Source: Sediminitomix flava
Lineage (GTDB): Bacteria; Bacteroidota; Bacteroidia; Cytophagales; Flammeovirgaceae
Direction of reading: 5' to 3'
DNA: 64,000 nt
Assembly (NCBI RefSeq): GCF_003149185.1
Contig: NZ_QGDO01000002.1
Coordinates: 124,001-188,000, forward strand
The stretch's first letter is position 1, and every line of letters begins with the position of its first letter. The notes under the pieces are model-generated. The model saw only the letters and a list, made by a program, of their open reading frames with translations. It was not told the origin of the DNA and searched no databases. A program made the position numbers and the translations under genes. Shown here in pieces: positions 2,359-38,224 of the stretch.

Positions 2359-3327
2359 CTAACAACAACCACCTCCATCATAGAAAAAAGTAGAGTCTGA
2401 AATATGAATTTCTTGATGGTTTAAATCTTTAAGTGCTTGTGCTGTTTTATCACAAACTGACAACGGTTGGTTTTGAAGTAACACATGTCCTTTTTTATCA
2501 TCGAAAAAGTCTTCATTTCCATAATAAATAGCGGTCTTACCCGTAAAAATACATGGACCATCAGAAGGCATAGGATCTTTTATCGCACAGATTTCTACAC
2601 TTTCTATGAAAATATTCTCTTGAGTATCATAATGATTTGGACTCAAAATACGGTACGGACGTTTAGCTCTTACTTCTACAGTGCCGAAACCACAATCTGT
2701 TATCATCTTAAGGTAGTCTTTCAAAGGTAAAGAACCACTCAAACAAAGAGCTCTCAAGCGTTCATCTTCCTTTAAATTCTCTGGCATTTTCTGCTCACAA
2801 ATAGGGTCTGAAAGCACCAACCTTCCGTGGGGTTTCAATACACGATACATTTCTTGAAGTGCTTTTTTCAAATCCTCTTCCTTAAAAATATTGAAAAGAC
2901 AATTTTGAGCAGCAACATCAATAGAGGCATCTTCAATGGGTAAAGCTAAAGCATCCCCTTTTCGAAGATCAACGAAATCTTTTTCAAACCAAGAGTTTTG
3001 CTTTTCTGCTTCTTCAAAGTTTTTTGCAGAAGCTTCTAGCATTTCATCAACTACATCCACTCCGATTACCCCTCCTTTTTTTCTACTGAAATATGAGAAT
3101 TGGAGTAACTCCATTCCACCACCTACACCTACATACAAAATGTTAGGTGTATTTACTAAATCTCGTGGATGGACAGTAGAACCGCAACCGTAGTTCATTT
3201 CGAGCATACGAGTCGGGATTTCTAATTCTGGTAACTTCCAGATTGGTGTTGTCGTACAGCACAATCCTATTTGCGGATTTTCAGCAGCTTCTTTATATAC
3301 GTTTTCGGTTACTTTTAAATATGTCAT
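2359..3327 (-). CDS. arsM: Arsenite methyltransferase, arsenosugar-type ArsM
   Basis: SAM-dependent methyltransferase for As(III). The Rossmann motif I is YVGVGGGMELLQF (about 65-77) with the acidic residue in GVDVVDEM. The two cysteines that bind arsenite in characterised ArsM are matched by Cys143 in QNCLFNIF and Cys195 in ALCLSGSL; Cys48 in GCGS may be the third. A C-terminal extension with GPCIFTGKTAIYYG and VCDKTAQAL, ending in GGGCC, is the form I know from ArsM proteins linked to arsenosugar synthesis. Its usual radical-SAM partner ArsS is not in this window. The gene is alone on its strand, closed by a strong terminator, and divergent (164 bp) from an EgtB-like enzyme. No ArsR, ArsC or arsenite permease is beside it. 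Arsenite as substrate is well supported; the final product is not known. Confidence 0.85.
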   Translation of the reverse strand: MTYLKVTENVYKEAAENPQIGLCCTTTPIWKLPELEIPTRMLEMNYGCGSTVHPRDLVNTPNILYVGVGGGMELLQFSYFSRKKGGVIGVDVVDEMLEASAKNFEEAEKQNSWFEKDFVDLRKGDALALPIEDASIDVAAQNCLFNIFKEEDLKKALQEMYRVLKPHGRLVLSDPICEQKMPENLKEDERLRALCLSGSLPLKDYLKMITDCGFGTVEVRAKRPYRILSPNHYDTQENIFIESVEICAIKDPMPSDGPCIFTGKTAIYYGNEDFFDDKKGHVLLQNQPLSVCDKTAQALKDLNHQEIHISDSTFFYDGGGCC

Positions 3328-3353
3328 AGCTCAAAAAAAGATTAGCTCATGAG

Positions 3354-3361
3354 CAAAGGTT
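3354..3361 (-). promoter_or_regulatory. Possible -7 box of arsM
   Basis: On the - strand this reads AACCTTTG, one mismatch from the Bacteroidota -7 consensus TAnnTTTG, about 26 bp ahead of the arsM ATG. No good -33 element was seen, so the assignment is tentative. Confidence 0.35.
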
Positions 3362-3491
3362 GAATCAATATTTTTGCTCCTTTTTTCTAAAAATACCGCT
3401 TATGATAGATTTTCACAGGTTTTTGAATTTTTTTATGAGAAACACCTCCTAATTTTCAATTAAACCTGCTATCGAATAAGAATTTAGATTC

Positions 3492-4724
3492 ATGTTAGAG
3501 ACGTTTAAGAGGATTAGAAAGCAATCAGTGGGCCTTTGTCAATCATTAAAGATTGAAGACCTTGTTATGCAACTGTCGGAAGAAGTTCGCTCACCCAAAT
3601 GGCATTTAGGACATACTACGTGGTATTTTGAAAAATATCTTTTGACAAATTATATAGAAAACTATAAACCTTATCATCCTTTATTTGAATATACTTTTAG
3701 AGATACGCCAAAAACTATATTTGCTCAAGACCAAGAAATTCAAGAAAGTGCAAGTAATCGACCTACCCTCGAAAATGTCTTACAATACAGAAAGTATGTA
3801 GAACTGCATATGAGTGGGTTAATTCTGGAATATGCAGAAGACAAGCACTTTAAGCATATTCTAAATGAAGCGATACATCATGAGTTGAAACATCAGGAGC
3901 TAATGATGACGAACTTGAAGACGATCATGGCTTCAAACCCTCTATTGCCCGAATATTCGGAAATGATTCCTACTTGGGAAAAAAGAGCTAATTACGATAT
4001 CAAGTGGATTGAAGTACCAGAAGGTGTTTATCAAATTGGACATCAAAGCGATGACTTCTCTTATGATAATGAAACAGGGGTTCATAAAACTTTTTTACAT
4101 GCTTACAGAATTCAAGACCGCCTTGTAACTAACAGAGAATATCTAGAATTTATGGCTGACGATGGTTACAAAAGGGAAGACCTTTGGTTAAAAGACGGTT
4201 GGAGTTGGGTGACAAAATACAAGGTAAAAGCACCATTATACTGGTTAAAAATGCATGACAAGTGGAAATATTACACCATGTATGGGCTCAGAAATATTGA
4301 TCTTGATCTACCAGTTACACATATCAGTTTCTACGAAGCAGAGGCATTTGCACGATGGAAAGGGCTAAGACTTCCGTCCGAATTCGAATGGGAGGTTGCT
4401 TGTCAGTTACACACTCCTTCTTGCCCAAGCAATACTAATTTTTTAGATCATAAAAGATTTATTCCAGTAGGAGAAAACGGGCACGCTCACTTTTGGGGAG
4501 ATGCTTGGGAGTGGACAAATAGTGCTTTTCTGGCTTACCCATTTAAAGAAAATAAAGAATTGACCTCAACTGAGAATCCTTCACGTCAATTGGGCAATAA
4601 AATTGTTTTAAGAGGAGGTTCTTGTCTTACACCTAAATCACACATCAGACTTACGTATAGAAACTACTCATTTCCTGAAAAACGATGGATTTTCAATGGC
4701 ATCCGATTAGCTGAATCGATGTAA
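3492..4724 (+). CDS. EgtB-like non-haem iron enzyme (DinB_2 plus FGE-sulfatase fold)
   Basis: 410 residues with the two-domain plan of ergothioneine sulfoxide synthases: an N-terminal DinB-like four-helix domain (about 1-150) and a C-terminal formylglycine-generating-enzyme-like domain (about 170-410). The iron ligands are visible as His38 in KWHLGHTTW and the HX3HXE motif His130/His134/Glu136. The C-terminus keeps VLRGGS and FNGIRLAESM. It is clearly a paralogue of EgtB at 32190-33368, but it lacks the EYNGKFMxNQ block just before VLRG that marks that EgtB, and it has an insertion around 305-330. The real EgtB sits with EgtD; this one is divergent from arsM. It may use a different amine or thiol substrate (OvoA- or SenA-like chemistry is possible), but no senB/senC-like gene is beside it. 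Oxidative C-S (or C-Se) bond formation is inferred from the family; the substrate is unknown. Confidence 0.75.
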   Translation: MLETFKRIRKQSVGLCQSLKIEDLVMQLSEEVRSPKWHLGHTTWYFEKYLLTNYIENYKPYHPLFEYTFRDTPKTIFAQDQEIQESASNRPTLENVLQYRKYVELHMSGLILEYAEDKHFKHILNEAIHHELKHQELMMTNLKTIMASNPLLPEYSEMIPTWEKRANYDIKWIEVPEGVYQIGHQSDDFSYDNETGVHKTFLHAYRIQDRLVTNREYLEFMADDGYKREDLWLKDGWSWVTKYKVKAPLYWLKMHDKWKYYTMYGLRNIDLDLPVTHISFYEAEAFARWKGLRLPSEFEWEVACQLHTPSCPSNTNFLDHKRFIPVGENGHAHFWGDAWEWTNSAFLAYPFKENKELTSTENPSRQLGNKIVLRGGSCLTPKSHIRLTYRNYSFPEKRWIFNGIRLAESM

Positions 4725-4999: not shown

Positions 5000-6064
5000 A
5001 TGAAGAATTTCACTTTCATTTTAATCACTTTTTTACTTTCTATTCAAAACTTACAAGCTCAGAAACTTGAACAGACATGGTTAGGGAACGTCATTGGAGT
5101 TAATGACACGATCAAGTGGGTGGGATACGATCCTCTGTACGTTGAAGATTACTCCCAACATTGGACTGTTCGTCTGATTAGCACCTACAAAAACAATTCT
5201 TTCGAGGTTTTAAATCGGAACACCGAAGGGGCAATGTATCGCATAAAATATAGTCCTGTTGCACCTTACAGTGTAGGTATAGGTTTAAATCACAAATGGA
5301 TTGGCTTCAATGCTAGTTTTACGCTATCCGAAGGACAGGATGGATTAAAAGATACAAGTAAACAGCTTGATTTAATTACTCGAATCTACGGTAGAAAAAT
5401 TGGAGGTGAATTCCGTATTCAATACTTCAATAAACACAAAGCAATAATATCCCCTCTCGAGAATCAACAAGACATAAACCTATCTGGAATACCATTTTTC
5501 AACAGTATTTTCGTAACAGGTAATGCCATGTATGTATTCAATCAGACTACATATTCATATATGGGAAGTATCACTCAAACCCAATGGCAGAAACAGAGTT
5601 CTGGATCGTGGTTAGTTGGTGGCTTATGGGATTACCACATCCTTTGGAATCATTCTACAACAAGCTCTGATGACCTAAAACAATTGAACCTCCGAAATAA
5701 TCATTACCTTTCAATTGGCGTAACAGGAGGATACGGACATACTTTTGTTTTTAAGAAACACTTTTATGTAGGTGGAACATTTATGGCTGGCCCTAGTGTA
5801 AGTAATGTTTTTCAGTCTGATCTAATAAATGGCGACCGAAACGATCATTTTCTTCGTCCAAGCCTCATGTCTATAGGTCGAATAGGAATAGGATATAATA
5901 GTGATATTTACTTTGCAGGCATTCAAGGTATTTATCAGAGTAATGTAATCTTTTGGGAAAATCAAGACCCTAGATATCGTTCAGGCTATCTAAGAATAGC
6001 TGTTGGACGTCGTTTTAATTGGGAAGCTAAAAGTAAAGTGCTCAAAGGAATTGGACTGCATTAA
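5000..6064 (+). CDS. DUF4421-type outer-membrane protein
   Basis: 354 residues beginning with a signal peptide that ends in LQNLQAQ. The mature part alternates aromatic and polar residues as in a beta-barrel and has the block SVGIGLNHKWIGFNASF followed by KQLDLITRIYGRK, which I recognise as the DUF4421 family of Bacteroidota. Function is unknown; an outer-membrane location is inferred from the signal peptide and strand pattern. It stands alone: the next gene downstream is convergent arginase and the gene upstream has unrelated function. No clear terminator follows. Confidence 0.7.
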   Translation: MKNFTFILITFLLSIQNLQAQKLEQTWLGNVIGVNDTIKWVGYDPLYVEDYSQHWTVRLISTYKNNSFEVLNRNTEGAMYRIKYSPVAPYSVGIGLNHKWIGFNASFTLSEGQDGLKDTSKQLDLITRIYGRKIGGEFRIQYFNKHKAIISPLENQQDINLSGIPFFNSIFVTGNAMYVFNQTTYSYMGSITQTQWQKQSSGSWLVGGLWDYHILWNHSTTSSDDLKQLNLRNNHYLSIGVTGGYGHTFVFKKHFYVGGTFMAGPSVSNVFQSDLINGDRNDHFLRPSLMSIGRIGIGYNSDIYFAGIQGIYQSNVIFWENQDPRYRSGYLRIAVGRRFNWEAKSKVLKGIGLH

Positions 6065-28161: not shown

Positions 28162-28313
28162 ATGCTTTTGTATTTAAGGAATGAAGGTATTGTTCAAATC
28201 AAACTAAGTTAAATCTTTACAAACCCATTCCCATAGGTTTACTTTAAGTCATCAAAATTGTGTCTCATTCTTCAGTAAAGGATGTAAATCTACAAACATC
28301 TTGTTTTAAAGGT

Positions 28314-29321
28314 ATGAGCGAAAAGAAAGAGGTTTTAGAACTCCCTATAGGTTTATTTAGCGAACACAGGGACATTTATGAAAAAACATTTCAGACGAAA
28401 ATTGATAAACATCGAAACTTCCTAAAGTTTGAATTTGGGTCTGGGAAGGGAATTATATACGAACTCAATCTATCTGAAGGAATAGATGTTGTTATTTATT
28501 CTTTCAATAAAAAAGAGGAACTTCCTTTCAAACTCAATCATGGCAGTACCAATGACAAAGTAAAATTCAATGTTTTCCTCCCCAAAGAAAATAACGAAGG
28601 ATACTTTCACCATGGAATAGAATTCTCATCAGGTATTTCTTTATGGATTGGCCATAATGACTTCACCTCTGGCATTGCTCCTAAAGGTAAATCTTCATGG
28701 CTGACATTTTTTGTATCTAATACCATAATGGAATCTTATGATTTCCCTCTTTCATTAAAAAAATGGATAAACCACAATAAAAAAGAAGAATACTTAATGC
28801 TCGTTGAATCTCTTCCTCTAGAAATTGAACTACTCACCAAAAAAATTCAAGCCCAGCTCCAAGAAGACGACAAGTGGCTTGAACTGGAAATGAAAGGTCT
28901 AGCCTTACAAGTTTTATCCCTCACAATAAAATCATTCTATGCTAGAATTATTAAAAATTCAGATGTTAAATACCAACTTATTAATACTAACGATTACAAA
29001 GCTTTGCTGAAAGCTAAACAGCTCATAGATCAAAGTGAAAACCATTTTCCATTAGTCTATAATTTAGCGAAGGCGGTTAACTTAAGCTTACGAAAACTTC
29101 AACGACAGTTTAAACAAGTATTTGGGATGACTGTGACTGACTATATTCAGAAAAAAAGAATGGAAAATGCAATCGAAATGCTATCCAATGGGAAAAGCTC
29201 AATCACAGACATTGCTATGAAACTAGGTTTTGCGAGTGTTGGACATTTTTCATCTACTTTTAAAAAATATTTCCAACTCACCCCCAGAGCGTACCAACAA
29301 AAATTAAGACTTGATAAGTAA
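28314..29321 (+). CDS. AraC-family transcriptional regulator
   Basis: 335 residues from the ATG at 28314 (a GTG at 28260 would add 18). The N-terminal 230 residues are a ligand or dimerisation region without clear signature. The C-terminal 100 residues form the double HTH: YNLAKAVNLSLRKLQRQFKQ and SITDIAMKLGFASVGHFSST, followed by TPRAYQ. It is upstream of a sulfatase gene on the same strand (172-bp gap), so it is a likely local regulator of that gene or of sulfated-glycan use; this is inference. Confidence 0.85.
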   Translation: MSEKKEVLELPIGLFSEHRDIYEKTFQTKIDKHRNFLKFEFGSGKGIIYELNLSEGIDVVIYSFNKKEELPFKLNHGSTNDKVKFNVFLPKENNEGYFHHGIEFSSGISLWIGHNDFTSGIAPKGKSSWLTFFVSNTIMESYDFPLSLKKWINHNKKEEYLMLVESLPLEIELLTKKIQAQLQEDDKWLELEMKGLALQVLSLTIKSFYARIIKNSDVKYQLINTNDYKALLKAKQLIDQSENHFPLVYNLAKAVNLSLRKLQRQFKQVFGMTVTDYIQKKRMENAIEMLSNGKSSITDIAMKLGFASVGHFSSTFKKYFQLTPRAYQQKLRLDK

Positions 29322-29493
29322 AGAATCTTTACTTGTCGTGAATATTGAACTTTTTGACGTTTTTATTTAGCTATTTAAAAATTCAAGTCACCACCTTTGT
29401 AGAGTAGACATACACTTACCATTATGACGTACAACTCACATAGCTAGACTATAGGAGTTGTAACCTAATTTATTAACACTATATCAAGTAAAA

Positions 29494-31077
29494 ATGAAAA
29501 CAATTGACCTTTTAAAAGGACTTGGTCTTGGCTCTACGCTCCTCGGAGCTGCCGTACCTTCTATCGCAGAAGATGCCCTAAAACCTAATGTAAAACAGGA
29601 TGAAAAACCTAACATTCTAGTTATTATGGGAGATGATATTGGATGGTTCAATATCAGCGCATACAATGACGGAATGATGGGCTATAAAACACCAAATATC
29701 GATAAAATAGCCAATGAAGGAATTCGTTTTACAGATGCTTATGCTCAACAATCCTCTACCGCTGGTCGTTCTGCCTTCATTACAGGACAAATGCCTTTCC
29801 GTACAGGTTTATTGAAAGTAGGATTGCCTGGTGCTGAACTAGGAATACAAAAAGAAGACCCTACTTTGGCTGAATTATTAAAACCACTAGGTTATACTTC
29901 AGGACAGTTTGGTAAAAACCACTTAGGAGATAAAGACGAATTCTTACCAACTAACCACGGATTTGATGAATTCTATGGAAACCTTTATCACTTGAATGCT
30001 GAAGAAGAGCCAGAGCACCCAGACTATCCTTCTGATCCAGCATTTAGAGAACAATTTGGTCCGAGAGGAGTCATTCATTCTACAGCCGATGGCCCAATCC
30101 GTGATACAGGACCATTGACCAAAAAGCGTATGGAAACTATTGATGAAGAAGTTTTAGATCATGCTAAAGACTTTATCAACAAGGCCGTAAAAGAAGAAAA
30201 ACCATTCTTTACTTGGGTAAATACATCAAGAATGCACGTTTGGACGCACTTGAAAAAAGAATCTCAAGGAGTAACAGGACAAGGAGTTTATGCAGATGGT
30301 ATGGTTGAACATGACAACCATGTTGGTGAATTGCTTCAATTACTTAAAGAATTAGGCATTGAAGAAAATACAATTGTAGTATACGCAACAGACAATGGTG
30401 CACAAGTTTGTTCATGGCCTGACGGAGGTACTATTCCATTTAGAGGAGAGAAAAATACAACTTGGGAAGGTGCTTTCCGTGTTCCGATGATGGTAAAATG
30501 GCCTGCAAAAATTAAAGGTGGACAAATTTCAAACGACATCATTTCACTAGAAGACTGGGTTCCTACACTAATGGCCGCTGCTGGTGATACAAACATCAAA
30601 GGAAAATTATTGAAAGGCCATCAAGCTGGAGATATGAACTACAAAGTTCATTTAGATGGATATAACTTCTTACCATATTTTGAAGGAAAAGAAGAAGAAG
30701 GTCCACGAAACGAATTCTACTACTTCTCTGATGATGGTTCTTTATCTGCTATCCGTACAGGTGACTGGAAAGCCATTTTCTCAGCACAAGAATCAAAAGG
30801 ATTAGATGTTTGGGCTCGTCCATTCACTACTTTCAGAGCACCATACTTAGTTAATTTGCGTCAAGATCCATTTGAAAGAGCAATGGAAGAAGGCATGTCT
30901 TACAATAAGTGGATGTATGAGCATGTATTTATGTTTGCTCCTTCTCAAAAGAATGTTCAGAAGTTATTGATGACATTCCAAGAGTACCCTCCAAGACAGC
31001 GTCCTGGTTCTTTCACTATTGATGATGTTTTCAAAAGTATCCCAACAGTAAAGGAGAGAGAAGTACTTAAAAAATAG
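29494..31077 (+). CDS. Exported arylsulfatase with serine-type active site
   Basis: Sulfate ester hydrolase of the alkaline-phosphatase superfamily, 527 residues, with an N-terminal export signal (about 1-26). Metal-binding Asp47/Asp48 lie in MGDDIGW, the active-site signature is S88-T-A-G-R92, and later ATDNGA and GEKNTTWEGAFRVP supply further metal and sulfate contacts. Close relatives I know carry Cys at the position of Ser88. A serine must be converted to formylglycine by an anaerobic-type maturase (anSME), which is not in the window. An AraC-type gene precedes it. No glycan transporter pair (SusC/SusD) is nearby, so its substrate is unclear. Confidence 0.88.
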   Translation: MKTIDLLKGLGLGSTLLGAAVPSIAEDALKPNVKQDEKPNILVIMGDDIGWFNISAYNDGMMGYKTPNIDKIANEGIRFTDAYAQQSSTAGRSAFITGQMPFRTGLLKVGLPGAELGIQKEDPTLAELLKPLGYTSGQFGKNHLGDKDEFLPTNHGFDEFYGNLYHLNAEEEPEHPDYPSDPAFREQFGPRGVIHSTADGPIRDTGPLTKKRMETIDEEVLDHAKDFINKAVKEEKPFFTWVNTSRMHVWTHLKKESQGVTGQGVYADGMVEHDNHVGELLQLLKELGIEENTIVVYATDNGAQVCSWPDGGTIPFRGEKNTTWEGAFRVPMMVKWPAKIKGGQISNDIISLEDWVPTLMAAAGDTNIKGKLLKGHQAGDMNYKVHLDGYNFLPYFEGKEEEGPRNEFYYFSDDGSLSAIRTGDWKAIFSAQESKGLDVWARPFTTFRAPYLVNLRQDPFERAMEEGMSYNKWMYEHVFMFAPSQKNVQKLLMTFQEYPPRQRPGSFTIDDVFKSIPTVKEREVLKK

Positions 31078-31254: not shown

Positions 31255-32229
31255 CTAGCTTCTTTTCCATAAGCTATCTACAAAATAACCTTTTGAATCA
31301 AAAAAATGTTCAACAACTTCAAAACCTGTTTGAGCTGCTAATTTCTCGATCTGTTCTAGGTCGTATTTTTTGGATAACTCTGTATAGATTAACTCATTTT
31401 TCTCAAAGCTGATATGTTGTTGTAAATTTCTAAAGAAGATATCTTGCTTCTCAATACTTACCAAATAACTTTTGACTTCTCCCGAAATTGGATCGTAGTG
31501 ACTATAAAAGTCAAATTTTGATTGATCTATTTCCGCCCCTAATTCTTCTTGCATACGATCTAAAAGATTCATGTTAAATGCCCTAGTTATTCCTTTTGGG
31601 TCATCATAAGCAAGCTTAATCGTTTGTGGATTTTTCTTGAGGTCAAAACCTGTTAGCAACTTATCTCCTTTCTTTAGATTGCTAGCAAATAACTTTAACA
31701 AGTCTATCACTTCACTATCCTTATAATTACCAATATTACTACCCAAGAATAATAATAAAGTAGGCGTACCTGTCTGTGAAAGTTTATGCAGTTCTTTGTA
31801 ATAGTCTCCTATTAGAGAATCAAACTTAAGTTTTGGAAGACTCTTTTTTAGTTTTGCTTCCAAAGTTTGAATTGCTCCGCTTGAAATATCTATCGGGCTA
31901 AAGTTGAATGAAAGATCCTGTGTTAAAAAATGACGCAAAAGCTCTGTTGTTTTAAGACCATCCCCTGCCCCTAGCTCTACAACTCGATAAGTTTGATCAA
32001 ATTGACAAGCTTCAAAAATTGTATTCCCTTTATTTTGAAGAATTTCAAACTCACAGTTGGTAAGGTAATATTCAGGCATATCCATAATTTCTCTAAAAAT
32101 TTGACTGCCTTTGTCATTATAGAAAAATTTGGATGAAATAGACTTAGGACTTTGAGAAAACCCTTCTAAAACTTCTTTTCCGAATTCGCTTAAATTGATC
32201 TCGCTAATCTTATTCCTGTAAATTGCCAT
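31255..32229 (-). CDS. egtD: L-histidine N-alpha-methyltransferase EgtD
   Basis: Makes hercynine (trimethyl-histidine), the first intermediate of ergothioneine. 324 residues with the family block MPEYYLTNCEFEIL (about 51-64), SAM site VVELGAGDGLKT (83-94), and FLGSNIGNYK, whose Asn contacts histidine in characterised EgtD. The gene start overlaps the 3' end of egtB by 40 bp, so both are translated from one message. No egtA, egtC or egtE is adjacent; in two-gene systems cysteine is often the sulfur donor and the lyase is elsewhere. Confidence 0.94.
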   Translation of the reverse strand: MAIYRNKISEINLSEFGKEVLEGFSQSPKSISSKFFYNDKGSQIFREIMDMPEYYLTNCEFEILQNKGNTIFEACQFDQTYRVVELGAGDGLKTTELLRHFLTQDLSFNFSPIDISSGAIQTLEAKLKKSLPKLKFDSLIGDYYKELHKLSQTGTPTLLLFLGSNIGNYKDSEVIDLLKLFASNLKKGDKLLTGFDLKKNPQTIKLAYDDPKGITRAFNMNLLDRMQEELGAEIDQSKFDFYSHYDPISGEVKSYLVSIEKQDIFFRNLQQHISFEKNELIYTELSKKYDLEQIEKLAAQTGFEVVEHFFDSKGYFVDSLWKRS

Positions 32230-33368
32230 TGGTAATGTGGGTGAAAAAAGTTTCTATATGTTTTTCTACTATGGTTAGGAGAAGTAGCAACTGAAGCGCC
32301 CCTAAGTACCATTTGATTTATCATGAATTTCCCATTGTATTCGCCTATTGCGCCTTCAGCTTTAGCAAATTTAGGATAAGGTAAGTAAGCACTGTTAGTC
32401 CATTCCCAACGAGTACCCCAGTTAAATTGGTCAGAAGCCGCTTCCCATTCAAACTCTGTTGGAAGTCTCATGCCTTTCCATTCTGCAAAAGCAGCAGCTT
32501 CATAATAACTCACATGAGATAAGGTAGCATCCAAATCCAATTCTTTCATACCTGCTAGCGTGTAAGTAAACCACTTCCCTTCTATCTTCTTCCAATACAA
32601 AGGAGCATCTACCTCACTTTCCTTGCGCCACGCCCATCCTTCATCCAACCACAAATCAAATCGTTCATAACCATCATCTTCTATAAACTGAACGTATTCA
32701 CGATTCGTCACCAACCAATCAGTTATTTCATAAGAATGAAGAAAAACTTTATGCCTTCCTAACTCATTATCATAACAAAATCCGTCACCTTCAAATCCGA
32801 TATCATAAATTCCTTCATCGAGCTTCAACCATTGCTTTTTAGCCTCTAAAGGCTTGTTGATTTTTGTATTCGGATAGACTTCTGGTTTTAAAGGATTGAG
32901 ACTAAGTGTATATTTTGTATCTGTGATAAAAAGCTCTTGGTGTTGTTGTTCATGATTTAAACCAAGCTCTAAAAGCGTTTCTAATTCGTTTATATTTTCG
33001 GGGTTAGATTGGAATAACTCGGTTATTTTCTGGTCAACGTATTTTCTGTATTCAAAGACTTCTTTTACGCTTGGGCGAGTCAACACACCTCTATTAGCTC
33101 TCTCGACTCTATCGCCAACAAGGTTGTAGTAACTATTGAATAAAAAAGAGAATTTAGGGTGAAAAACTTTATAACCCCCCAAATGCTTCTTCAAAATAAA
33201 CTCCTCAAAAAACCATGTTGTATGTCCTAAATGCCATTTTGGAGGACTAACAAAAACAGCTGGTTGAGGAATGTAATCTTCGGTATGGAGTGGTTCACAA
33301 AGCGACTCAGTATAATTTCGAATTTCTAGATACCGTACAAGTGTATCGTGAGTAGTAAAAAGTTCCAA
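32190..33368 (-). CDS. egtB: Hercynine oxygenase/sulfoxide synthase EgtB
   Basis: Non-haem iron enzyme joining hercynine and a thiol with O2 to form the sulfoxide precursor of ergothioneine. 392 residues: DinB-like domain with His46 (PKWHLGHTTW) and HX3HXE at His139/His143/Glu145, then the FGE-like domain with EYNGKFMINQMVLRG, SRKTYRNFF and QFTGIRLARS. This C-terminal signature is the standard EgtB one and differs from the paralogue at 3492-4724. The start appears to be TTG (no upstream in-frame ATG). It is the first gene of the egtB-egtD unit. Confidence 0.93.
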   Translation of the reverse strand: MELFTTHDTLVRYLEIRNYTESLCEPLHTEDYIPQPAVFVSPPKWHLGHTTWFFEEFILKKHLGGYKVFHPKFSFLFNSYYNLVGDRVERANRGVLTRPSVKEVFEYRKYVDQKITELFQSNPENINELETLLELGLNHEQQHQELFITDTKYTLSLNPLKPEVYPNTKINKPLEAKKQWLKLDEGIYDIGFEGDGFCYDNELGRHKVFLHSYEITDWLVTNREYVQFIEDDGYERFDLWLDEGWAWRKESEVDAPLYWKKIEGKWFTYTLAGMKELDLDATLSHVSYYEAAAFAEWKGMRLPTEFEWEAASDQFNWGTRWEWTNSAYLPYPKFAKAEGAIGEYNGKFMINQMVLRGASVATSPNHSRKTYRNFFHPHYQWQFTGIRLARSI

Positions 33369-36502: not shown

Positions 36503-38224
36503 TTACTTAGCTATAAGCATAGGCTGCCAATCATTAGTGAAAACGTGATCAGAAATTCCTTCTTGAATCATTAGAATTTTTTCATTTTCACTTTCTGCTC
36601 TTGCCAATAAGACCTTTTCTGAAGTATCTAAATTCAATAAACTCTTATTGATAATACATGCATAAGGTGTAATAGCTGCTCTTTTTAAATCTTTCGTTAA
36701 CTGTATTGCTTCTTGAACTGGAGTGTTTTCAGCCAAAGTAACTACGACTACTTTTGTATAGTTTTTGTCTTGAAGACGCATAAAAGGAGTCGTGATTTTA
36801 TCCGTATTACCTGTCCTACTCTTTTTCACCATCTGATGATAATCACGCGTCTGCTCCATCAGAAGTAAAGTATGACCTGTCGGAGCTGTATCAAGTATTA
36901 CTACTTTTCTTCTAGCTTCTCTGATCAGAGCGCTAAAAGCATTAAATACAGCCACTTCTTCTGTACAAGGAGACCTTAAATCTTCTTCAAGCAAAGCCAA
37001 TTGATCTTCAGATAGCCCTCGTCCTTTTATTTTCAGCTCTTTTTGAATATGTCTTTCAACTTCTTCTTTCGGATTCACCGATGATACTTCAAGATTCTCA
37101 TATTGACGATCTAACATCAAATGAATATGTGAAGCAGGATCAGTAGTAGAAAGATGAACTTTAATACCTTTTTCGGCCAAAGAAGTAGCTAATTCAACTG
37201 CCATACTTGTTTTTCCGACACCACCTTTACCCATCATCATGACCAATCCATGATCTTGAGAAGCTAATTCTTCCACAAGTTCTGTAACCTTAGGCATTTC
37301 GTTTTTATCATGTTCTTGGATATGGTCAGTCATACTAACCTGATGGTATAAAAAGGCCTCAATCTGAGGAACACCAACAATATCATAGGCCAAAAGTGGT
37401 GTTTGTTCAGAAGATAGTGTCTTCAAATGCGAAGGCATATCATCTAACTGCTGAGCTACAACATCATGGTATTGAACAGCTAGAGAATCCATTTTATTTT
37501 CAGACTCAAAAACACCATTCACTATCAGATATTGATTTTCTATCCCTCTTTCAGCTAAAGCTATACTTGTCTTTTCAGCCTCAAAGTTTGCGGCTCTATC
37601 TGGTCTAGTCACTAAAACTAGAGTGGTTAAGTCGCTATTTTTTAAAGTTGAAATACTTTGCTTGTACCATTGTTGGTTCACTTTCAAGCCTGAGGTTGGC
37701 CCAGCACAAGTATTTGTATCAGGATTGTCTGTGATAAAATTATCCCAAGCAGCTGGTAATTCCAGCAATCGTAAGGTATGCCCTGTTGGAGCTGTATCAA
37801 AGATAATGTGATCGTAAGTTTTACTCATTTCAGGGTCTGCCAAAAATTGAGTAAAACGGTCAAATGAAGCTATTTCTGTAGTACAAGTTCCTGAGAGTTT
37901 TTCCCTCATACGTCTAAGTTGTGCTTCAGATATTTTATCTTCAAAAGGCTTTAAAATATGCTCTCGATAATTTTCAGAAGCTAACTCTGGGTCAATATTT
38001 ACAGCCGATAGGTTAGGTACTTGAGAAATTTCAACAATATGGCCATCTATTTTTTGTTGAAAAACTTGCCCTAAGTTACTCGCGGGGTCAGTGCTAATAA
38101 GAAGAGTCTTTTTTCCTTCTCTTGCTAATTTCAAAGCAGTAGCACACGACAAAGATGTCTTACCAACACCACCTTTACCTGTAAAAAAATAAAACTTCGT
38201 AGGATGATTTAGAAATTCAAGCAT
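36503..38224 (-). CDS. arsA: ArsA-type arsenite/tail-anchored-protein ATPase, duplicated
   Basis: 573-residue cytosolic ATPase made of two homologous halves, each with a deviant Walker A GKGGVGKT (16-23 and 332-339) and a DTAPTGHTL switch. The three cysteines that bind As(III) in E. coli ArsA are all matched: Cys114 (SGTCTTE), Cys173 (NTCAGP) and Cys420 (RSPCTEE). This supports an arsenite-stimulated pump ATPase rather than a Get3-like chaperone. However, no ArsB/Acr3 permease, ArsD or ArsR lies beside it, so the membrane partner must be elsewhere or the role differs. A -7 box TAAGTTTG is present about 40 bp upstream. Confidence 0.88.
   Translation of the reverse strand: MLEFLNHPTKFYFFTGKGGVGKTSLSCATALKLAREGKKTLLISTDPASNLGQVFQQKIDGHIVEISQVPNLSAVNIDPELASENYREHILKPFEDKISEAQLRRMREKLSGTCTTEIASFDRFTQFLADPEMSKTYDHIIFDTAPTGHTLRLLELPAAWDNFITDNPDTNTCAGPTSGLKVNQQWYKQSISTLKNSDLTTLVLVTRPDRAANFEAEKTSIALAERGIENQYLIVNGVFESENKMDSLAVQYHDVVAQQLDDMPSHLKTLSSEQTPLLAYDIVGVPQIEAFLYHQVSMTDHIQEHDKNEMPKVTELVEELASQDHGLVMMMGKGGVGKTSMAVELATSLAEKGIKVHLSTTDPASHIHLMLDRQYENLEVSSVNPKEEVERHIQKELKIKGRGLSEDQLALLEEDLRSPCTEEVAVFNAFSALIREARRKVVILDTAPTGHTLLLMEQTRDYHQMVKKSRTGNTDKITTPFMRLQDKNYTKVVVVTLAENTPVQEAIQLTKDLKRAAITPYACIINKSLLNLDTSEKVLLARAESENEKILMIQEGISDHVFTNDWQPMLIAK

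Follow-up and report, generated by a model that had tools for sequence, protein, structure and literature searches.

A predicted EgtB-fold protein of Sediminitomix flava that keeps its putative iron histidines and has lost other conserved EgtB residues

To our knowledge, the characterised members of the EgtB scaffold (EgtB, OvoA, SenA, and OvsA) all join sulfur or selenium to the imidazole of histidine. A stretch of 64,000 nucleotides from Sediminitomix flava (contig NZ_QGDO01000002.1; hereafter, the window) encodes two proteins that are recognised as EgtB. One of them, EgtB1, forms a canonical ergothioneine pair with the histidine N-methyltransferase EgtD, whereas the gene of the other, EgtB2, lies back to back with that of ArsM, an arsenosugar-type arsenite methyltransferase. 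What does EgtB2 do, and does ArsM have any part in it? The original prediction was that the two genes share one promoter region and may belong to an undescribed small pathway, with EgtB2 acting on an arsenic-, selenium-, or histidine-derived compound. Our analysis tilts slightly toward EgtB2 being an iron protein of the EgtB fold that has given up making the ergothioneine intermediate and whose substrate is new or absent, and it makes a functional link between EgtB2 and ArsM very unlikely.

Conserved residues kept and replaced in EgtB2

The equivalog model TIGR03440 recognises EgtB2 as an EgtB (415 bits; cut-off, 360), yet on sequence grounds we would not file it there, as it failed on the catalytic tyrosines and on the set of hercynine-contact positions. 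EgtB2 was aligned with 144 other EgtBs, and departures were counted over the 102 columns conserved to 95% or more, with open reading frames (ORFs) of 330 amino acids or fewer, broken frames, and copies identical over the last 250 residues left out. EgtB2 departs at 27 of these columns, EgtB1 at none, the median sequence at 1, and the worst of the others at 6. In addition, the departures lie next to one another more often than expected, their adjacency being 16 as compared with a mean of 6.9 after shuffling among the conserved columns (p ~1e-4). When four segments were drawn after the departures had been seen, 23 of the 27 fell within residues 69-88 (8 of 9 columns), 127-141 (3 of 9), 346-370 (10 of 13), and 392-400 (2 of 3), which corresponds to 23 of 34 columns changed inside the segments versus 4 of 68 elsewhere, two of those four being Phe to Tyr. 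Since EYNGKFM was one of the two patterns by which 80 loci had been selected, the count was repeated without those loci, and EgtB2 then departed at 27 of 100 columns and any of the other 77 relatives at no more than 3.

Three histidines, H41, H130, and H134, are kept in EgtB2 and are invariant in 157 of 157 other EgtBs; we take them to be the iron ligands (H62, H153, and H157 in the type II EgtB of Chloracidobacterium thermophilum, CthEgtB). The residues Y72, Y73, R85, Q133, D141, Y362, N363, K365, F366, F392, and F393 are just as constant among the 157 others, and all of them are changed in EgtB2. Thr72-Pro73 of EgtB2 align with Tyr93-Tyr94 of CthEgtB, a Tyr-Tyr pair in every other sequence, and the arginines of RxxRG are replaced by Glu, which is a charge reversal. 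The motif HEQQHQE reads HELKHQE, with Lys in place of the Gln preceding the last iron histidine, and EYNGKFM has become ENPSRQL. Arg103, Arg106, and Gln156 of CthEgtB presumably contact the donor and the acceptor.

One published account (PMC10903977) describes Tyr93 and Tyr94 of CthEgtB as active-site tyrosines that are essential and that correspond to Tyr377 in MthEgtB. The same account reports that the Y377F exchange in MthEgtB greatly lowers sulfoxide synthase activity and leaves a cysteine dioxygenase side activity, and that one OvoA remains active as a sulfoxide synthase when Phe replaces its active-site Tyr. According to the title of PDB entry 8ux5, three substitutions turn OvsA into a hercynine binder, and the positions of this switch align with Tyr in EYNGKF and with Asn-Phe in RNFF. 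At the hercynine-contact positions, EgtB2 has N362, N391, and Y392 where the other EgtBs have Y, N, and F, so that one of the three is identical.

Relatives, descent, and predicted structure of EgtB2

The models for other enzymes of the scaffold score EgtB2 far under their cut-offs (SenA NF041186, 275 bits versus 420; OvoA TIGR04344, 120 bits versus 400), and, judged by sequence, EgtB2 is neither a SenA nor an OvoA. With E values up to 0.001, it matches only itself and EgtB1 within its own genome. EgtB1 is a homologue with 43% identity and is a short form: ahead of WEWT, it is ~26 residues shorter than EgtB2 and the long-form EgtBs. Of the 18 genomes of the family, only the present one combines a long form with a short one, as judged by the split of the matches. 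Compared with the type II EgtB of C. thermophilum (6qki, 6qkj, 6o6l, and 8qf6), EgtB2 has the same full-length fold in its predicted model, 39-42% identity, and the three histidines, but it differs in having other residues in place of the Tyr93/Tyr94 pair, both arginines of RxxRG, the Gln that precedes the last iron His, and EYNGKFM. SenA, OvsA, OvoA, and EgtB-IV (8k5i, 8u41, 8khq, and 8vih) share the fold of the EgtB2 model and are only 22-25% identical to it.

No full-length match to EgtB2 above 46% identity was found in the genomes sampled from the family (18), the order (148; 390), or the phylum (395), which include one genome of the host's genus and were drawn from larger groups; the ceiling refers to matches over the whole length, and short conserved fragments of other proteins are more nearly identical. 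A single-protein scan of genome contigs gave 9 pattern hits and no relative among them. A profile scan with the patterns EYNGKFM and KWHL[GA]HTT reached a top identity to EgtB2 of 45% among the best 80 of 587 hits, a design that a distant orthologue could escape, and a plasmid search reached 41%.

Among the 145 sequences compared, EgtB2 stands farthest apart, and all 143 other EgtBs are nearer to EgtB1 than to it. Its end branch measures 3.74 versus a median of 0.86 in a tree of 85 rows, thinned at 68% identity, and 2.42 versus 0.63 in the 45 rows chosen for approximately unbiased (AU) tests. These tests rejected none of three placements, namely with EgtB1 (p = 0.172), with the family long forms (p = 0.699), or with the short forms (p = 0.812), and the placement of EgtB2 is unsure because of its long branch. 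There was no sign of a foreign origin, as GC content at third codon positions and codon use were within the range of ten other genes of the window.

The EgtD gene is next to EgtB, or one ORF removed, at 22 of the 28 loci of the order's long forms, and EgtD is also near EgtB in 5 of 5 further loci of the family; this adjacency is usual for an EgtB and not strictly defining. The nearest EgtD to EgtB2 in the window stands beside EgtB1. A true egtB-egtD pair at a distance had been predicted and indeed exists, although the end of EgtD lies ~26.5 kb from EgtB2 and not 28 kb. Orthology of EgtB2 to the order's long-form EgtBs was considered and rejected on these two grounds, i.e., the 143 others that are nearer to EgtB1 and the EgtD found near the long forms in 22 of 28 loci.

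The AlphaFold2 model of EgtB2, built from an alignment of 27 sequences, has a mean predicted local distance difference test (pLDDT) score of 86 and superimposes on CthEgtB 8qf6 with Z 51.7 and a root-mean-square deviation of 1.8 over 385 residues, residues 1-410 of EgtB2 aligning with 22-433 of the entry. The Z score was 42.6 for MthEgtB, 37-40 for OvsA, SenA, EgtB-IV, and OvoA, and ~19-21 over 203-222 residues for other FGE-fold structures (ToxD, CalU17, and FGE), which is far below CthEgtB. The EgtB fold is therefore predicted to be retained. The pLDDT score drops below 50 only at residues 73-88 and 355-365, both inside replaced regions. Per ten residues, loop 73-88 scored 44-48 in EgtB2 versus 77-80 in an EgtB1 control modelled from the same 27 sequences, and loop 355-365 scored 51-58 versus 59-67, being weak in both and slightly better in EgtB1. 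Hence, only loop 73-88 appears specifically worse in the EgtB2 model, which says nothing on function.

The locus and the usual neighbours of ArsM

The features on which the analysis turns are collected in Table 1. Both divergent genes and the gap between them were recovered as ORFs exactly as originally described.

Table 1. Positions in the window of the two divergent genes, the altered EgtB2 segments, and the canonical pair
Feature	Position	Strand	Basis or remark
ArsM, arsenosugar-type arsenite methyltransferase, 322 aa	2359..3327	-	NF038099, 576 bits (cut-off, 400)
Divergent intergenic region ArsM/EgtB2, 164 bp	3328..3491	.	Read directly
EgtB2, predicted EgtB-fold protein, 410 aa	3492..4724	+	TIGR03440, 415 bits (cut-off, 360); Pfam FGE-sulfatase domain
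EgtB2 residues 69-88, RDTP...ExxES versus NSYY...RxxRG in other EgtBs	3696..3755	+	8 of 9 conserved columns changed
EgtB2 residues 361-367, ENPSRQL versus EYNGKFM in other EgtBs	4572..4592	+	
EgtD, histidine N-methyltransferase of the canonical ergothioneine pair	31255..32229	-	TIGR03438; Pfam Methyltransf_33
EgtB1, canonical EgtB	32190..33368	-	TIGR03440, 526 bits

Mechanical ORF calling (at least 100 amino acids) found 10 divergent pairs among the 48 neighbouring ORF pairs of the window, 6 of them with a gap of 300 bp or less. The start codons of ArsM and EgtB2 are separated by the shortest gap of the ten (164 bp), and the back-to-back arrangement by itself is not unusual for the window. A promoter region common to both genes is possible, but the scans returned no significant site: a sigma-70-type scan of 3200-3600 found none, and the Bacteroidota-type -33/-7 pattern gave one match with one mismatch at 3342-3376 (+), as compared with 0.38 expected per 360 bp and strand. 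Two terminator-like stems were seen on the + strand at 3227-3262, within the 5' portion of ArsM; shuffled sequence averages 0.3.

ArsM homologues exceed the model cut-off in 12 of 148 genomes of the order and 26 of 395 of the phylum; as four genomes, the present one included, are in both lists, the comparison set comprised 33 other genomes. The present ArsM is 69-78% identical to these 33 homologues, departs at none of 145 conserved columns, and has 9 of its 12 cysteines invariant across them; by its sequence, it is a typical, full member of NF038099. The stretches fetched around the 33 genes mostly covered 5-7 kb per side, and two ended at contig ends (L047 and L085). Of these stretches, 22 contain ArsS, 22 an AhpD-like gene, and 20 a TIGR04282-like gene (the query for the latter, from genome G049, itself scores 117.6 bits, under the model cut-off of 134), and none of the 33 contains EgtB1-like or EgtB2-like sequence. 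Given these counts (22 versus 0 of 33), this type of ArsM goes with ArsS and not with EgtB.

The present ArsM resembles the members of this arsenosugar cluster in its family, and the genome does encode an ArsS on another contig (contig C1, locus L134, 8442-9476; a clear TIGR04167 member over cut-off, with 456 bits). It differs in its surroundings, as a search of the 14 kb around it turned up none of the ArsS, AhpD-like, and TIGR04282-like partners; the cluster, with ArsS near in 22 of 33 genomes, is not universal. The ArsS of this genome is solitary, and the 18 kb fetched around it yielded no ArsM, AhpD-like, or TIGR04282-like gene. The arsenical pump-driving ATPase ArsA, in a full form with two domains, is encoded in the window at 36503-38224 (-; 698 bits; cut-off, 650), and its immediate neighbour ORFs, judged by eye, are unlike other arsenic genes. 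A second, generic arsenite methyltransferase-like protein is found ~230 kb outside the window (contig C2, locus L103, 5685-6467), scoring 215 bits with the PRK11873 model, under its cut-off of 263.

The proposed pathway linking ArsM and EgtB did not survive this survey: within the samples searched, the adjacency was seen in the present genome only, no EgtB2 orthologue was found in these samples and in limited scans, and an arsenic-EgtB pathway was rejected by gene neighbourhood. The selenium link was rejected as well, given the SenA score of EgtB2 and given that the best match anywhere in the genome to TIGR04348, which we take to be the SenB model, reaches 32.9 bits (cut-off, 300). The literature searched yielded no publication naming both EgtB and ArsM. 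The pairing looks accidental, with two independent genes side by side, and the ArsM neighbour gives no clue to the substrate of EgtB2.

As for the canonical pair, EgtB1 overlaps egtD by 40 bp; EgtD scores 265.5 bits with TIGR03438, slightly under the cut-off of 290.9, and 308 bits with Pfam Methyltransf_33 (cut-off, 23). Near it, at 28260-31077 (+), an apparent AraC-type regulator (a translated ORF only) is followed by a sulfatase-like protein, the best matches of which are arylsulfatase and choline-sulfatase models, far under cut-off. ArsM is followed, in the same orientation and 276 bp from its stop, by an H-NOX gene (HNOB, nitric oxide-sensing type) together with a hybrid sensor histidine kinase (92-2082, -). 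H-NOX relatives in the 17 other family genomes comprise one close (G534, 49%) and ten weak ones (21-29%); the G534 locus (L267) has the kinase, and the 19 kb fetched there showed no ArsM, EgtB2, DUF4421, arginase, or SufB gene. A DUF4421 protein is encoded 275 bp after EgtB2 on the same strand (5000-6064, +), and no DUF4421 gene was found around ArsM in the 33 other genomes.

What EgtB2 may do

We propose that EgtB2 is a fast-diverging EgtB paralogue that would have left ergothioneine synthesis, a role that the EgtB1-EgtD pair would cover. It would still bind Fe(II) and O2 but would be unable to join hercynine to a cysteine donor. By analogy, its most likely chemistry would be a simpler oxidation, dependent on O2, of a single small substrate, for instance the oxygenation of a thiol, which we suggest because MthEgtB with its catalytic Tyr replaced keeps a cysteine dioxygenase side activity. 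ArsM, judging from its family and the gene content, would make methylated arsenicals by the ordinary route, with ArsS encoded elsewhere. Of the original prediction, what holds in spirit is that EgtB2 is apparently no ordinary EgtB with an unchanged substrate, its catalytic tyrosines and ligand-contact residues being replaced around kept iron histidines; the arsenic and selenium links do not hold.

The kept iron histidines and fold core, together with the replaced catalytic and ligand residues, fit a change or loss of substrate, in a protein under a continuing need to fold, better than unselected decay. More specifically, and tentatively, EgtB2 could well be a working non-haem iron enzyme in which the O2-activating acid-base group and the sites for the sulfur donor and the histidine derivative have been exchanged, with a reaction undescribed for EgtB, OvoA, SenA, or OvsA, possibly the oxidation of a non-histidine substrate. 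Several points weigh against a protein that has left ergothioneine synthesis. No EgtB2 orthologue turned up in what was searched, and EgtB2 is still over the EgtB equivalog cut-off. The active-site placement of the changed segments rests on cited residues and PDB titles, and loop 73-88 is poorly defined in the EgtB2 model and better in that of EgtB1, loop 355-365 being poor in both. The loss of the tyrosines is no proof either, given an OvoA that, according to PMC10903977, tolerates Tyr to Phe.

That EgtB2 is a displaced egtB decaying with its frame still open after the canonical EgtB1-EgtD pair took over seems rather unlikely to us, but with no orthologue found in what was searched, decay stays a serious rival. 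It would agree with a singleton on a very long branch, with no EgtD alongside and one loop modelled worse than in EgtB1, in the only genome of the family's 18 with a long plus a short form (match split). Unselected drift, however, would be expected to strike the fold core as well, whereas the 410-codon frame is intact, 64 of the 68 conserved columns outside the four post hoc segments are kept (two of the four changes being Phe to Tyr), and so are the three iron histidines. Descent from either form is also compatible with the AU tests, which rejected none of the three placements. Alternatively, EgtB2 may still be an ergothioneine-type sulfoxide synthase that has found another solution for the catalytic tyrosine or uses another sulfur donor or histidine derivative. 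Passing TIGR03440 and keeping N391 and an aromatic residue at 392 in the acceptor site speak for this, as does PMC10903977, in which Tyr93-Tyr94 of CthEgtB stand in for Tyr377 of MthEgtB and one OvoA tolerates the loss of its Tyr. We nevertheless regard it as improbable, as the catalytic pair, both arginines of RxxRG, the iron-side Gln, and the EYNGKFM loop have all been exchanged together and a complete EgtB1-EgtD pair is present in the same genome. We give even less credence to an undescribed pathway of EgtB2 and ArsM, with a methylated arsenical or an arsenic-thiol compound as the substrate of EgtB2. The back-to-back genes with a 164-bp common upstream region would suit it, as would an EgtB2 that is probably outside ordinary EgtB chemistry and an ArsM without ArsS beside it, but no EgtB occurs around ArsM in the 33 other genomes, no EgtB2 orthologue was found in what was searched, ArsM itself is unchanged, and divergent neighbours are common in the window.

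For the EgtB scaffold, a natural member that keeps its iron histidines and has its catalytic and ligand residues exchanged would test how far the chemistry can shift, and which residues set the choice between forming a C-S bond and simply oxidising a thiol. For genome annotation, the equivalog model names EgtB2 an EgtB, so that automatic annotation would count a second ergothioneine enzyme in S. flava, which is probably false; the altered EgtB2 enzyme may do something new.

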